Assembly (NCBI GenBank): GCA_026002935.1
Contig: BPGH01000001.1
Span: 90,814-154,813 of the forward strand
DNA: 64,000 nt
Direction: 5' to 3'
Source of the DNA: Acidimicrobiia bacterium
Lineage (GTDB): Bacteria > Actinomycetota > Acidimicrobiia > IMCC26256 > PALSA-610
Shown here in pieces: positions 35,396 to 42,083 of the stretch (positions within the stretch are counted from its first letter, which is position 1; each line of letters starts with the position of its first letter). Position numbers and translations under genes: made by a program. The notes under the pieces are model-generated. The model searched no databases, was not told the origin of the DNA, and saw only the letters and a program-made list of their open reading frames with translations.

Positions 35396-36856
35396 TCAGT
35401 CCTCCCCGGGTCCGGCGCCGCGGCGCAGCGTGTCCAGCGTACGGGGCAGCGCGTCGATCAGGTCCATCGCGACGAGCGCCGCGCCCGTACCCGCCTCGGC
35501 CGCGGCCCGGCCCTGCAGGTCGGCCGCGGTCGCGGCGGCGGTGAACGGGTCGGCGCCGTTGGCGAGCAGCCCGCCGACGATGCCAGCGAGCACGTCGCCG
35601 GTACCGGCCGTGGCGAGCGCCGGCCCGTCGGTGCGGTTGACGACCGCGCGGCCGTCGGGCGCCGCGACGACCGTCCCGGGGCCCTTCAGGCAGACGACGC
35701 CGCCGGTCACGCGCGCGAGGTGCCGGGCGGCCTCGACGCGGTCGGGGCCGACGGCCCGGCCCGCGAGGCGCTCGTACTCGCCGGCGTGCGGGGTCAGCAC
35801 CGCCGGTGGGAGGCCCGCGGCGACGCGCACGCGCAGGGCGGCCGGGTCGACGGCGAGGGCGTTGAGCGCGTCGGCGTCGACGACCACCGGCACCGGCGCC
35901 TCGGCCACCACGCGCCGTGCCGCCGCGTGCGCGCGCTCGTCGCGGCCGAGCCCCGGGCCGATGCAGACGGCGTGGAACCGGTGCAGGTCCTTCAGCACGA
36001 CGCGGCCCGCGTCCTCGTCGAAGCCGCCCTCCGGCGTGGCCGGCAGCGCGCGCACGACGACCTCGGGGCCCGCGGCGAGGCGCGCCGCCTCGGCGCCGGG
36101 CAGCGCGGCGACGACCATGCCCGCGCCGCAGCGCGCCGCGGCGCGCGCCACCATCGACGGCGCGCCCGTCATGCCGAGCGACCCGCCCACGACCAGGAGC
36201 GCGTGCGACCACTTGTGGTCGGTCGCACCGCGCCGGGGCAGCCACAGGTCGCCCGCGTCGAGGACGGCGAGCCCCGCCCCCGCGCCGCCCGGGCCGCTGA
36301 CGTCGATCCCGATGTCGACGACGCGCACCGTCCCCGCGTGGGAACGCCCCGGCTCGAACAGCAGGCCGGGCTTCAGGGCGGCGAAGCAGACGGTCTCGTC
36401 CGCCACGACGGCCCGCCCCCGCACCTCGCCGGTCGCGCCGTCGACCCCCGAGGGGATGTCGACGGACAGGGTGGGAAGCCCGGCGACGGCCGCCGCGGCG
36501 CGCGCCGGGTCCCCGTCGAGCGCGCCCCGGAAGCCGGTGCCGAACATCGCGTCGACGGCGAGGTCGGCGCGGGCGGCCGCCCGTTCGACCCCGTCGACCG
36601 AGTCGAGGACGCGGAACACGTCGACCCCGCACCCCGCGGCCCGCAGCCGCCGGGCCGCGACGAGGCCGTCGGCGCCGTTGTTGCCGCGGCCGCACAGCAC
36701 GACGACCCGCCGGCCGTAGGTGCCGCCGAGCATCCGGACGGCGGCGCGCGCGGCCGCGCCGCCCGCCCGTTCGACGAGCACCTCGAACGGCGTGCCGGCG
36801 GCGATCGCGCGCGCGTCGGCGTCGGCCATCTCCGCCGGGGTCAGGACGGGCTCCAC
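35396..36856 (-). CDS. nnr: Bifunctional NAD(P)H-hydrate epimerase/dehydratase
   Basis: VVLCGRGNNGADGLVAARRL, VLTPHAGEYERLAG, GTGDVLAGIVGGLLANGADPF. Confidence 0.93.
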   Translation of the reverse strand: MEPVLTPAEMADADARAIAAGTPFEVLVERAGGAAARAAVRMLGGTYGRRVVVLCGRGNNGADGLVAARRLRAAGCGVDVFRVLDSVDGVERAAARADLAVDAMFGTGFRGALDGDPARAAAAVAGLPTLSVDIPSGVDGATGEVRGRAVVADETVCFAALKPGLLFEPGRSHAGTVRVVDIGIDVSGPGGAGAGLAVLDAGDLWLPRRGATDHKWSHALLVVGGSLGMTGAPSMVARAAARCGAGMVVAALPGAEAARLAAGPEVVVRALPATPEGGFDEDAGRVVLKDLHRFHAVCIGPGLGRDERAHAAARRVVAEAPVPVVVDADALNALAVDPAALRVRVAAGLPPAVLTPHAGEYERLAGRAVGPDRVEAARHLARVTGGVVCLKGPGTVVAAPDGRAVVNRTDGPALATAGTGDVLAGIVGGLLANGADPFTAAATAADLQGRAAAEAGTGAALVAMDLIDALPRTLDTLRRGAGPGED

Positions 36857-36866
36857 CGCCGGGACC

Positions 36867-39800
36867 TCAGCCGCGCCAGCGGTCGGCCAGCCGGACGACC
36901 GGCTCCGTCAGCAGCTCGACGAGGTCGATGGTGCCGAGCACCTCGTCGCGCATCACCGGCTCGACCTCGGTGACCTGGTCGGCGATCGCCTCGTAGCGGT
37001 CGCGGTACCCCTCCAGCACGCGCCGGGCGGCGTCCGCGGGCAGGCGCTCGTGGAACCGGACGTGCAACAGCGTGAGGCCCGTCGTCTGGTTCGCCTTCAC
37101 CTCCGGCACGAAGATCATGGTGCGGCCGTCGGCCCGCCCGCGCACGACGGTGACCTCACGCTCGCTGGCGGCACGGTGCTTGCTGCCGCGCAGCCGCGGG
37201 TCCTGCTCCGTGCGGGACGGGATGTCGCGGGCGATGCCACCGCGGTCGACGACGTGGATCGTGGCACCGTCGCGCGCCGGGTCGCCCTCGATCCGGTAGC
37301 GGGTCCACCCGACGACGGCGTCGACCGCCGGGTCGAGGGCCACGAGCGTGCGCAGCGCCCGGTAGGTGAGGTTGTCGCGCGGCGCCCCGGTCGCCAGCAG
37401 CTCCCGCACGAGGCGCACCTGCAGCAGGGTCTCGTCGGAGCGCGAGATCCCGACGGTGACCGTCTTCGCCTGGTGCTTGATCGCGTCGACCGGCCGGGTC
37501 AGCTCCTCGATGCCCTTCGTGAGCGCGCCGAGCAGGTCCTCCACCAGCGTGCTCGGCGTGCCCACCTTGCCGAACTCGAGCTGGTAGGCGTCGAGGGGGA
37601 GCACCCCCACCGCGTACCGCAGCAGCGACGCGATGCGCACCGCGGTCGCCGCCTCCATCGAGCCGTCGTAGGAGGAGGTGTGCAACAGGTCGAAGAACCT
37701 CGCCGAGACGGGCTCGATCTCGCTGGCGAGCGCCGCCAGGAGGTCGTCGCCCTCGCGGGCGCTGCTGACGACCGCCTCGATGGCGGCGCGCGCCTCGCGC
37801 AGCGGCCGGGCGGTCGCGTCGATCGCGAGGGCGGCCTCGTAGCCGAACAGGTGCCCGGCCAGGGCGCAGAGCACGAACGCGACGTCGGGGTGCACGCGCG
37901 GGACGGGGATCGTCTCGAGCGCCGCCCCGAAGCGCGTCTCGCCCTCGTCCGTGATGGCGATGGGCGCCGCCTTGTGCGCCCGGAAGATCGCGAGCTCCTT
38001 CGCGACGTCGTCGGCGTTCGACCCGCGCAGCCCGGCGGCGCAGACGATGATCATCGGCTCCGCCGACAGGTCGATGTGCTTCTTGTCCTCGGTGACGTCG
38101 CAACCGATCGACTTGTAGCAGAGCTCCGAGAGCTTGATCCTGATCTCCTCCGCGGCGACCCGGTTGACACCGTTGCCGACGACCGTCCACGACCGCCGGG
38201 CGAGCGCGTGCCGCTGCGCCGCAGCGGCCACCGCGTCGCGGCGCGCCAGCACCGCCTCCATGGCCGCGGGCAGTGCGCGCAGCTCGCCGAGCAGCTCGTG
38301 ACGGTAGGCCGCGCGCTCCTCGTCGGCGCCGAGCTCCGCCGCGAGCGCGAACGCGAGCAGGAAGCCCGCCGCGATCTGCGCGTAGAACGCCTTCGTCGAC
38401 GCGACGCTCATCTCGACGTCCCGCCCGTCCGACGTGTAGAGCACACCGTCGCTCTTGTCGACGAGGTCGCTCTGGCGGCGGTTGACGATCGCGACGACCC
38501 GCCCGCCCCGCGCCCGGACGACGTCGACGGTGCGGTTGGTGTCGGCCGTCGTGCCCGACTGCGAGATCGCGACGACCAGCGTGTCGCCCATGTCGCGCTC
38601 GAGGCGGAACCCCGAGAGTTCCGTCGCGAGCATCGCCTCGACCGAGACCTCGCGGGGCAGGGCGCGCCGCAGCGCGTGCGCGACGCCGTGGCCGGCGACC
38701 GCCGCGGTGCCCTGCCCGACGACGACGACCCGCCGCAGCCGCCCCGACCGCAGCCACTCGAGCACGGCAGGTGGGAACGTGTCGGCGCCGAGGCGGACGC
38801 CGAGCCGTCCACCGCGCTCGACGATCCGCCCGCGCAGCGTCTTGCGGAACGACGCCGGCGACTCGAAGATCTCCTTCAGCAGGTAGTGCGGCGCGTCGCC
38901 CCGGTCGACGTCGCGGGTCGTGATCTCGGGGGACGCCCACTCGTCGTCGCCGACCGGCAGCGGGGTCCCGTCGTACGAGCGGCGCTCGACGCCGCCCGGG
39001 GCGACGGCGACCACCTGCCCCTGGGTCGCCGGGTCGCCGGGCGACCGCATCGTCTCGCCGTCGAGGCGCAGGGAGCGGTCGCACTCCTCGACGACGCCGT
39101 ACGGTTCGCTGGCGATCACGTACGCGTCCGGCGCCACCCCCACGTACAGCGCCTGTCCGGAGCCGCGCTGCGCGAGCAGCAGCCGCCGCGGGTCGGCCGC
39201 GACGTGGGCCACGATCGCGACCGAGCCCTCGAACGACGCGACCGACGAGCGGAACGCCTCGAACGGGTCGGCGCCCGCGGCGATCCGGCGGGAGACCAGG
39301 GCGGGGATCACCTTCGCGTCGGTCGTGATGTCGGGCGGGAACCGCAGCCCCTCCAGCGCCCGGATGTCGGCGTGGTTGTCGACGTCGCCGTTGAGGGCCG
39401 CGACGACGAACGGCCCGTCGGGCCGGCCGACCTCCTCGTGGTTCAGCGGGTGGGCGTTCGCCTCCGAGATGATCCCGACGCTGGCCCAGCGCGTGTGGGC
39501 GAGCACGACCGCCTCCGCCCGCTCGCCCCGCAACGCGAGCCGCAGCAGCTCGTCGCCCGCGATCTGCTCCCGCAGGCGCGCCGTGTTGTCGCCGAGCTCG
39601 CCGATCTCGGCGGCGGTCTTGTAGACGAACGAGAGGTGGCCGAGCGGGCGGCGCACCGACCCCGACCCGTACAGGGGGTCGCGCGACCGCTGCTCGACGA
39701 GCCGGGCGATCGCGGGGTCGTCGAGGTCGAGGTCGTGGCCGACGACCAGCACGTGAAGGCCCGCGGAGTCGCGCCCGCGCACCTCGAGCCGGTCGAGGGC

Positions 39801-40277
39801 GCAGAGCGCGAGGTGGATCGAGTGGTACGCCTCGACCCCGCCGCGGGTGGCGGGCGCCCCGCCGGCGAGGGCCGCGATCCCCCGCGCGGTGCGCACCCGG
39901 TCGCGCCCGACCGCCCACACCGCGTCCTTGGCCGCGACGATCGCGGCGTTGAGCTCCTCGATGCCCTCCCCGTCCCCGAACGCGGCGTCGAGGCGCACCT
40001 CCAGCTCCCCGAGCGCCCGGGCGATCGCCTCGGCCCGGTGCTCGAAGCCGGCGCACGCGACCGGGTCGGCCAGCAGCGCGGCGGCGCCCGCCGCGCCGCG
40101 CAGGGCGCGGTCGACCTCCGCCAGCCCGGCGGCGACCCCGGCGACGGCCGCCGCGTCGGGGACGCCGTCGCCCCCCCGCAGCCGGGCCAGCCCGCGGTCG
40201 AGGGCGTCGAGCAGCGGGGCGAGCTCCGGCGGCACCGCGTCGCTGGGGCGTCGCAGCACGGCGACGATTCCGCACAT
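36867..40277 (-). CDS. Oversized glutamine-fructose-6-phosphate aminotransferase-like protein (GATase II plus two SIS domains, with N-terminal insertion and C-terminal extension)
   Basis: MCGIV start, RLEVRGRDSAGLH, HTRWASVGIISEANAHPLNHE, VAISQSGTTADTNRTVD, VASTKAFYAQIAAGFLLAFAL; 1136 aa. Confidence 0.9.
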   Translation of the reverse strand: MCGIVAVLRRPSDAVPPELAPLLDALDRGLARLRGGDGVPDAAAVAGVAAGLAEVDRALRGAAGAAALLADPVACAGFEHRAEAIARALGELEVRLDAAFGDGEGIEELNAAIVAAKDAVWAVGRDRVRTARGIAALAGGAPATRGGVEAYHSIHLALCALDRLEVRGRDSAGLHVLVVGHDLDLDDPAIARLVEQRSRDPLYGSGSVRRPLGHLSFVYKTAAEIGELGDNTARLREQIAGDELLRLALRGERAEAVVLAHTRWASVGIISEANAHPLNHEEVGRPDGPFVVAALNGDVDNHADIRALEGLRFPPDITTDAKVIPALVSRRIAAGADPFEAFRSSVASFEGSVAIVAHVAADPRRLLLAQRGSGQALYVGVAPDAYVIASEPYGVVEECDRSLRLDGETMRSPGDPATQGQVVAVAPGGVERRSYDGTPLPVGDDEWASPEITTRDVDRGDAPHYLLKEIFESPASFRKTLRGRIVERGGRLGVRLGADTFPPAVLEWLRSGRLRRVVVVGQGTAAVAGHGVAHALRRALPREVSVEAMLATELSGFRLERDMGDTLVVAISQSGTTADTNRTVDVVRARGGRVVAIVNRRQSDLVDKSDGVLYTSDGRDVEMSVASTKAFYAQIAAGFLLAFALAAELGADEERAAYRHELLGELRALPAAMEAVLARRDAVAAAAQRHALARRSWTVVGNGVNRVAAEEIRIKLSELCYKSIGCDVTEDKKHIDLSAEPMIIVCAAGLRGSNADDVAKELAIFRAHKAAPIAITDEGETRFGAALETIPVPRVHPDVAFVLCALAGHLFGYEAALAIDATARPLREARAAIEAVVSSAREGDDLLAALASEIEPVSARFFDLLHTSSYDGSMEAATAVRIASLLRYAVGVLPLDAYQLEFGKVGTPSTLVEDLLGALTKGIEELTRPVDAIKHQAKTVTVGISRSDETLLQVRLVRELLATGAPRDNLTYRALRTLVALDPAVDAVVGWTRYRIEGDPARDGATIHVVDRGGIARDIPSRTEQDPRLRGSKHRAASEREVTVVRGRADGRTMIFVPEVKANQTTGLTLLHVRFHERLPADAARRVLEGYRDRYEAIADQVTEVEPVMRDEVLGTIDLVELLTEPVVRLADRWRG

Positions 40278-40303
40278 GTGGCACTGCTCCCGTGAGGGCG
40301 CCG

Positions 40304-40335: not shown

Positions 40336-41676
40336 CTACGGGCGGGCGGCCGGGGACCCCTCCGGGCCGAACTGGCGCACGACGGCGGCCTCCAGCCGGG
40401 CCGCGGCGGCCTCCGCCACGTCCGGGTCGTGGGCCTCGACCATGACCCGCACGAGGGGCTCGGTGCCCGAGGCCCGCACGAGCACCCGCCCCTCGTCGCC
40501 GAGCTCCGCCTCGACGGCCCCGACCTCGGCCCACAGCCCCGGGGCGGCTCCGAGGTCGGGGCGGCGGTCGACGCGGACGTTGACCAGCACCTGCGGGAAC
40601 CGCTCCATCGCGGACGCCACCGCCGACGCCGGGCGGCCCGCCCGCCGCACGAGGTCCGCGAACAGCAGGCCCGTGAGCAGGCCGTCGCCGGTCGTCGCGA
40701 GGTCCGCGAACACGACGTGCCCGCTCTGCTCCCCGCCGAGCACGAGGTCGTGCTCGGCGAGGGAGGCGAGGACGTTGCGGTCCCCGACCGGCGTCTCGAC
40801 GACCCCGATGCCCGCCGCGGCGAGCGCCCGCCGCAGCCCGAGGTTCGACATCACGGTCACCGCGACCGCCCGGTTGCGCAGTGCGCCGCGGGCGTCGAGA
40901 TCGAGCGCAAAGGCCGTCATCATCTGGTCGCCGTCGACGATCGCGCCCCGCTCGTCCACCGCGATGACGCGGTCGGCGTCGCCGTCGAGCGCCAGCCCGA
41001 GGTCCGCGTGCCGTTCCCGCACCGTGCGCACGAGGTCGTCGGGGTGCGTCGAGCCGCACCCCTCGTTGATGTTGCGGCCGTCGGGCTCGGCGTGGATGAC
41101 GGTGACGTCGGCGCCGGCCCGCGCGAACACCGGCGCACCGACGGCCGACGCGGCGCCGTTCGCGCAGTCGAGCACGACGCGCATCCCGCCGAGGTCGCGC
41201 CCGCCGAGCACGCCGACCACGTGCGCGACGTACTCCTCGGAGCGGTCGACCGTCTCCCAGCGGGGCTCGGCGTCGACGGCGGCGCCGGCGAGCACGGTCT
41301 CGACCTCCCGCTCGACGGCCGCCTCGGCCTCGTCGCGCAGCTTCGTGCCGCCGGGCCCGAGCAGCTTGATCCCGTTGTCGGTCCAGCGGTTGTGGCTGGC
41401 CGAGATCACGGCCGCAGGGGCGCCCTCGCGCTGGGCGACGTACGCGACCCCCGGCGTCGGCAGCACGCCGAGCGCCGTGGCCTGCGCGCCCTCGGCCGCG
41501 AGGCCCCGGCAGAGCGCGGCCTCGATGCGCGGGCCCGATGCCCGGGTGTCGCGGCCGACGAGGAACCGGCCCGGCCCCAGGACCCGGGCGGCGGCCCGCC
41601 CGAGGGCGACGACGAAGTCGTCGGTGAGATCGGCGTCCGCGTCGCCGCGCACGCCGTCGGTGCCGAACCGGAGCAA
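40336..41676 (-). CDS. glmM: Phosphoglucosamine mutase
   Basis: MLRFGTDGVRGDADADLTDDFVVALGRAAARVL, VISASHNRWTDNGIKLLGPGG. Confidence 0.95.
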   Translation of the reverse strand: MLRFGTDGVRGDADADLTDDFVVALGRAAARVLGPGRFLVGRDTRASGPRIEAALCRGLAAEGAQATALGVLPTPGVAYVAQREGAPAAVISASHNRWTDNGIKLLGPGGTKLRDEAEAAVEREVETVLAGAAVDAEPRWETVDRSEEYVAHVVGVLGGRDLGGMRVVLDCANGAASAVGAPVFARAGADVTVIHAEPDGRNINEGCGSTHPDDLVRTVRERHADLGLALDGDADRVIAVDERGAIVDGDQMMTAFALDLDARGALRNRAVAVTVMSNLGLRRALAAAGIGVVETPVGDRNVLASLAEHDLVLGGEQSGHVVFADLATTGDGLLTGLLFADLVRRAGRPASAVASAMERFPQVLVNVRVDRRPDLGAAPGLWAEVGAVEAELGDEGRVLVRASGTEPLVRVMVEAHDPDVAEAAAARLEAAVVRQFGPEGSPAARP

Positions 41677-41690
41677 CGCGGCCCCGCCGG

Positions 41691-42083
41691 TCAGCGCTTC
41701 GAGTACTGCGGCGCCTTGCGGGCCTTCTTCAGGCCGTACTTGCGCCGCTCCTTCTCACGCGCGTCGCGGGTGAGGAGCCCGGCCTTCTTCAGCACGGGCC
41801 GCGTGTCGGGGTCGAGGGCGACGAGCGCCCGGGCGATGCCGAGCCGCAGCGCCCCCGCCTGCCCGCTGACCCCGCCGCCGTCGAGGGTGGCCTCGACGTC
41901 GTAGACCTCCTCGGTCTGGGTGAGGCGCAGCGGCTCCTTGGCGACCACCTGGTGGGTGAGCGTCGGGAAGTACTGGGCGAAGGGCCGGCCGTTCACGACG
42001 ATCTGCCCGCTCCCGGGACGCAACCGCACGCGGGCGATCGACTCCTTGCGGCGTCCGGTCGTCTGGATCAGCGGCTTCGGCAC
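41691..42083 (-). CDS. rpsI: 30S ribosomal protein S9
   Basis: [19 protein letters not shown]...[12 protein letters not shown]. Confidence 0.97.

Follow-up and report, generated by a model that had tools for sequence, protein, structure and literature searches.

A deeply diverged, double-length GlmS with an internal C-terminal tail as the probable glucosamine-6-phosphate synthase of an Acidimicrobiia bacterium

The window analysed was a stretch of 64,000 nucleotides of contig BPGH01000001.1 (positions 90,814 to 154,813; assembly GCA_026002935.1), in which the genes were found in the order rpsI-glmM-long glmS-nnrD-CBS protein-alr-hydrolase-S58 peptidase. The long glmS gene (36867..40277, minus strand) is an intact open reading frame of 1136 amino acids that opens with MCGIV, and full-length homologues 53-71% identical to its product were found across Acidimicrobiia. 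It lies directly downstream of glmM, as had been noted from the sequence, with a gap of 58 bp between the two genes. The upstream neighbour glmM (40336..41676, minus strand) encodes a phosphoglucosamine mutase with PGM_PMM domains I-IV, rpsI (41691..42083, minus strand; Ribosomal_S9) was used as the slot marker, and the downstream neighbour is a bifunctional gene of the nnrD/nnrE type (35396..36856, minus strand; Carb_kinase and YjeF_N) that occupies a conserved slot. Neither a glmS ribozyme nor any other RNA was detected with Rfam near long glmS. An open frame of 1191 amino acids (36720..40295, plus strand) runs antisense across the entire gene; such a frame is expected at a G+C content of 75-77% and was therefore not taken as evidence of a gene.

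In the long GlmS, Pfam recognized GATase_6 at residues 255-391 and a single SIS domain at residues 515-642, the NCBIfam glmS models aligned to residues 253-818, and a sequence search of the PDB returned E. coli GlmS over residues 258-816; the frame and both model collections agree with the sequence-only reading, which had described a 1136-aa GlmS-like enzyme with a GATase II domain and two SIS domains. The score against TIGR01135 was 213 bits, below the curated equivalog cut-off of 418 bits, which counts against the identification as GlmS; other long forms scored 214-235 bits. The comparison of an AlphaFold model with E. coli GlmS proposed in that reading was also carried out: the AlphaFold2 model, run on an alignment of 58 rows (pLDDT 88, pTM 0.82), gave GFAT-1 and E. 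coli GlmS as the top PDB matches by Foldseek (E 1e-28 to 1e-27, TMt 0.71-0.81), with a TMt of 0.81 to 2J6H.

Residue numbering and spacing were referred to the chromosomal GlmS of E. coli K-12. (On E. coli plasmid pMTY11352_4 (L161) there is a glmU-pstS interval without an annotated glmS, in which, unlike the chromosomal gene, no intact long open reading frame was found.) Relative to this reference, the spacing between Cys1 and Arg26 is enlarged by 140 residues and that between Arg26 and Arg73 by 49 residues (R167-R263, 96 versus 47), and about 318 residues lie beyond SIS2, so that the insertion of about 140 residues after MCGIVAVL and the roughly 300 extra C-terminal residues claimed previously were both borne out. 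Among 58 aligned long homologues, the N-terminal insertion ranges from 140 to 164 aa and the stretch that starts at residue 930 from 201 to 221 aa; since the length and all insertions are kept in these homologues, the architecture is fixed and is not the product of a frameshift or fusion artefact.

The roles of the catalytic-site residues are established by work on GlmS and GFAT. The glutaminase half begins with the strand MCGIVAVLR (residues 1-9; 40251..40277, minus strand), in which M1, C2, G3 and I4 are invariant in the 58 homologues and the nucleophile Cys2 aligns with Cys1 of E. coli. It is followed by the N-terminal insertion (residues 10-144; 39846..40250, minus strand; net 140 extra residues), a predicted helical bundle with helices at residues 19-138 and a pLDDT mostly above 90 in the AlphaFold2 model, for which no match was found in Pfam or NCBIfam. 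The remainder of the GATase II domain (residues 145-440; 38958..39845, minus strand) is interrupted by a second insertion (residues 178-255, about 49 net extra; 39513..39746, minus strand). The residues corresponding to C1, R26, R73, W74, H86, N98, G99 and D123 are shared without exception by the 15 long forms compared, and those taken as diagnostic of the glutaminase (the Cys nucleophile, R26, R73, W74, N98, G99 and D123) are also invariant in the 58 homologues.

SIS1 (residues 515-642; 38352..38735, minus strand; Pfam SIS, E 6.5e-20) carries the phosphate loop SQSGTT with invariant S572, Q573, S574 and G575, and SIS2 (residues 690-820; 37818..38210, minus strand), to which the match to the glmS model extends as far as residue 818, superposes on E. 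coli GlmS in the model named above. The residues equivalent to S347, Q348, S349, T352, V399, S401, K485, E488, K503, H504, A602, K603 and V605 are identical in 15/15 long forms, including those diagnostic of the two-SIS half (S347-Q348-S349, T352, K485, E488 and H504), and the key catalytic residues are invariant in the 58 aligned homologues. The NGDVDN loop and the letters TEDKKHIDLSAEP in the ELKHGP region are as previously read; this altered region retains K503 and H504 of E. coli as K733 and H734, placed 16 residues from E718 (E488 of E. coli) with the same, ungapped and invariant spacing (38076..38126, minus strand). Differences from E. coli were H77 to V, I or M, C300 to Q, S303 to A, R599 to K or R, E608 to G and, directly after the catalytic His, GP to ID; R331 is variable, and T302 is T or S.

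SIS2 is followed by a linker (residues 821-929; 37491..37817, minus strand) that is all helix in the models and absent from canonical GlmS. In descriptions of GlmS, the C-terminal tail ends the chain and closes off both active sites; it had been reported as not present in this protein. Canonical actinobacterial GlmS terminates in VDKPRNLAKTVTVE; the long form carries VDAIKHQAKTVTVG in mid-chain (residues 930-943; 37449..37490, minus strand), with 8/14 ungapped identities to the canonical tail, a value equalled by 6 of 20,000 shuffles of the extension. A937, K938, T939, V940, T941 and V942 are invariant in 58/58 long homologues, AKTVTV was found in every long form read that far, and the match together with this invariance indicates that K938 corresponds to E. 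coli K603. Judged from these alignments, the canonical C-tail is retained inside the long GlmS at residues 930-943, contrary to the previous claim. Both A602-K603 and VTV are thus present, though internally; 193 residues follow the tail, and E608 is replaced by G943. The tail of GlmS carries residues of both sites, and in E. coli Glu608 forms a salt bridge with Arg331 (PMC8041777); the replacement of Glu608 by Gly and the loss of Arg331 are what one would expect of a tail that has ceased to be terminal. Residues 931-945 have a pLDDT below 50 in the AlphaFold2 model, too low to place the tail or its docking, and this was counted against the GlmS reading.

The extra C-terminal domain (residues 944-1136; 36870..37448, minus strand) has an alpha/beta composition, and in the models its approximately 190 residues are ordered as a helix, two strands, helices, three strands and helices. 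Folded alone, the C-terminal piece reached a pLDDT of 90, and its order of strands and helices fits domains of the PAS/GAF type. Foldseek returned GAF, PAS/LOV and other sensor domains for it (best E 0.013, listed matches 0.01-0.1, TM mostly below 0.5), with no match at E <= 0.001; with the PAS and GAF models of Pfam, 30 long-form members gave zero matches, even when E was relaxed to 10. The extension had no sequence match in the PDB, Pfam, NCBIfam, plasmids or viral contigs, and the search against viral folds turned up no significant match. The domain is strongly conserved in the alignment of 58 homologues, with many invariant residues; its resemblance to PAS/GAF domains, a weak one drawn from models, is treated here as a lead only.

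Most of the class Acidimicrobiia carries full-length homologues of the long GlmS, which have a patchy distribution in the other classes of actinobacteria. Of 100 genomes (that of the window and 99 relatives), 65 contained the long form only, defined by the lack of any further GlmS-like match apart from split pieces, 34 the canonical form only, one neither and none both. In a sample of 246 genomes of the class (completeness filter 90%, the host genome also being listed), 129 passed the glmS equivalog cut-off, and none of these is a long carrier identified among the 100. The slot rpsI-glmM-X-nnrD-alr holds either long or canonical glmS among relatives, a canonical GlmS of 608-620 aa occupying it in G084, G017, G030, G068 and G081. 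In the host genome, which is 85% complete so that a second glmS could be missing, neither the second canonical glmS that the sequence-only reading had proposed to look for nor a nagB above the cut-off was found, and glmU and glmM are present; this absence is no proof alone, but the class-wide pattern supports it. The other SIS protein of this genome (G000:C1:1379797-1380033, L002), adjoining a phosphomannomutase, is a bifunctional phosphoglucose/phosphomannose isomerase.

In a sample of the phylum, the C-terminal region was present at full length in 35/397 genomes, 7 of them outside the class; a 36th match covered a short stretch (E 2e-4), and in one small class the distribution was patchy (4/19). 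Among long carriers outside the class, a canonical gene that passes the cut-off occurs only in G319, an actinobacterial assembly of 6.5 Mb with both canonical and long glmS (contigs C155 and C313; L147 and L137), which was counted against the GlmS reading and reflects either real co-existence or contamination (estimated at about 5%). Plasmids and viral contigs yielded no long form, and the best 80 matches of the contig scan apparently all belong to this lineage, a few under odd record names. Two long glmS genes from outside Acidimicrobiia (L135 in G430 and L138 in G372) lie away from glmM and alr, in both cases near an SMC-like ATPase and in one adjoining an M24 peptidase; they were possibly acquired by horizontal transfer.

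Identities and a tree were calculated on 602 core columns, with Bacteria and one haloarchaeon as the canonical set. Long forms were 65% identical to one another, canonical forms 53% on average (lowest 39%), and long to canonical forms only about 29%, which was counted against the GlmS reading. The long forms are set apart from canonical GlmS by a single branch with a length of 2.8 substitutions per site and a bootstrap value of 100, and the two kinds of core are more distant from each other than E. coli GlmS is from archaeal GlmS. Because the whole core is deeply diverged, a recent fusion onto the local glmS does not explain the gene; it may have changed fast in place, or an old relative may have displaced the former gene within the slot.

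By its catalytic, structural and contextual features, the long GlmS is probably the working glucosamine-6-phosphate synthase of the cell, in a deeply diverged, double-length variant. The catalytic residues, the synteny, the way long and canonical GlmS exclude each other and the failure to find a further glmS or any nagB in the 85% complete genome lead to this reading and uphold the same proposal made earlier; a large actinobacterial group likely makes its first cell-wall amino sugar with this form. The very high G+C content and the antisense frame might point to a decayed gene or to an artefact of annotation, frameshift or assembly, but this is refuted to the point of being negligible: homologues of full and equal length occur by the dozen in independent assemblies, among them complete chromosomes (for example Aquihabitans sp. 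G128), and one homologue (L141) is situated in DNA of 35% G+C. An aminotransferase of the GlmS kind that uses a different sugar phosphate or serves a different pathway would accommodate the very long branch from all sampled canonical GlmS, as well as the change of GP to ID after the catalytic His and the replacements of C300 by Q and S303 by A, which are real. We nevertheless consider it improbable and do not favour the different sugar substrate raised previously, since SQSGTT and the equivalents of K485, E488, H504 and K603 are invariant, the gene holds the same slot after glmM and almost never co-occurs with canonical GlmS, and a further source of glucosamine-6-phosphate was not found in a genome that has GlmM and GlmU.

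If the long GlmS is the working synthase, Cys2 would hydrolyse glutamine, the ammonia would travel through a channel gated by Trp264, and the SIS site, with E718, H734 and, from the internal tail, K938, would convert fructose-6-phosphate by isomerisation and amination; in GlmS the channel is formed by Trp74 and the C-tail (PMC7948480). More speculatively, the linker and the C-terminal domain, which flank the mobile tail directly, might control its closure and thereby confer allosteric regulation, and the N-terminal helical insertion might pack on the glutaminase domain or at an oligomer interface. The extra domains may best be accounted for by altered regulation or ammonia channelling, and we tentatively suggest a self-contained allosteric synthase, in which a domain that senses a ligand and is tied to the tail would gate both the active site and the channel for ammonia. 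It is quite conceivable, though short of an even chance, that the extra regions of a glucosamine-6-phosphate synthase serve stability or oligomerisation only, with no ligand sensing: the N-terminal insertion and the linker are all-helical, the PAS/GAF-type matches are weak and Pfam identifies no known regulatory domain, but the strong conservation of the C-terminal domain and its direct attachment to the mobile tail speak against so passive a role. Were the allosteric synthase real, feedback control would reside inside one chain, whereas elsewhere it is exerted via GFAT loops or separate regulators.

The reaction of GlmS is the first in the synthesis of cell-wall amino sugars and almost universal, and the enzyme is a drug target. 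The open literature searched contained no account of such a long GlmS from Acidimicrobiia; the form lies outside the family model and is undescribed as far as this literature shows. A whole bacterial lineage has the tail in mid-chain and about 500 extra residues while falling under the standard annotation cut-off, and genome pipelines may call most Acidimicrobiia glmS-negative. The long GlmS is a natural experiment on the tail, ammonia channelling and feedback control.

With canonical bacterial GlmS (TIGR01135; E. coli 2J6H and 1JXA) the long GlmS shares the order GATase II-SIS-SIS, both catalytic sets, the K603 tail motif and the position downstream of glmM. Unlike the canonical enzyme, which has about 609 residues and lacks both insertions in its glutaminase half, it has a helical linker of 110 residues, an internal tail and then about 190 further residues, and the terminal Glu608-Arg331 salt bridge is lost. 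Eukaryotic GFAT-1 and GFAT-2 (6R4E and 6SVP) are alike in core fold (TMt 0.71-0.75) and likewise have an inserted loop; GFAT is regulated, its insertion being a regulatory loop, but it has no extra C-terminal domain, and its chain ends in the C-tail (residues 670-681; PMC8041777). GlcN-6-P deaminases of the NagB-II type and SIS-only enzymes have SIS domains in common with the long GlmS but no GATase domain, whereas the glutaminase site of the long GlmS is intact.
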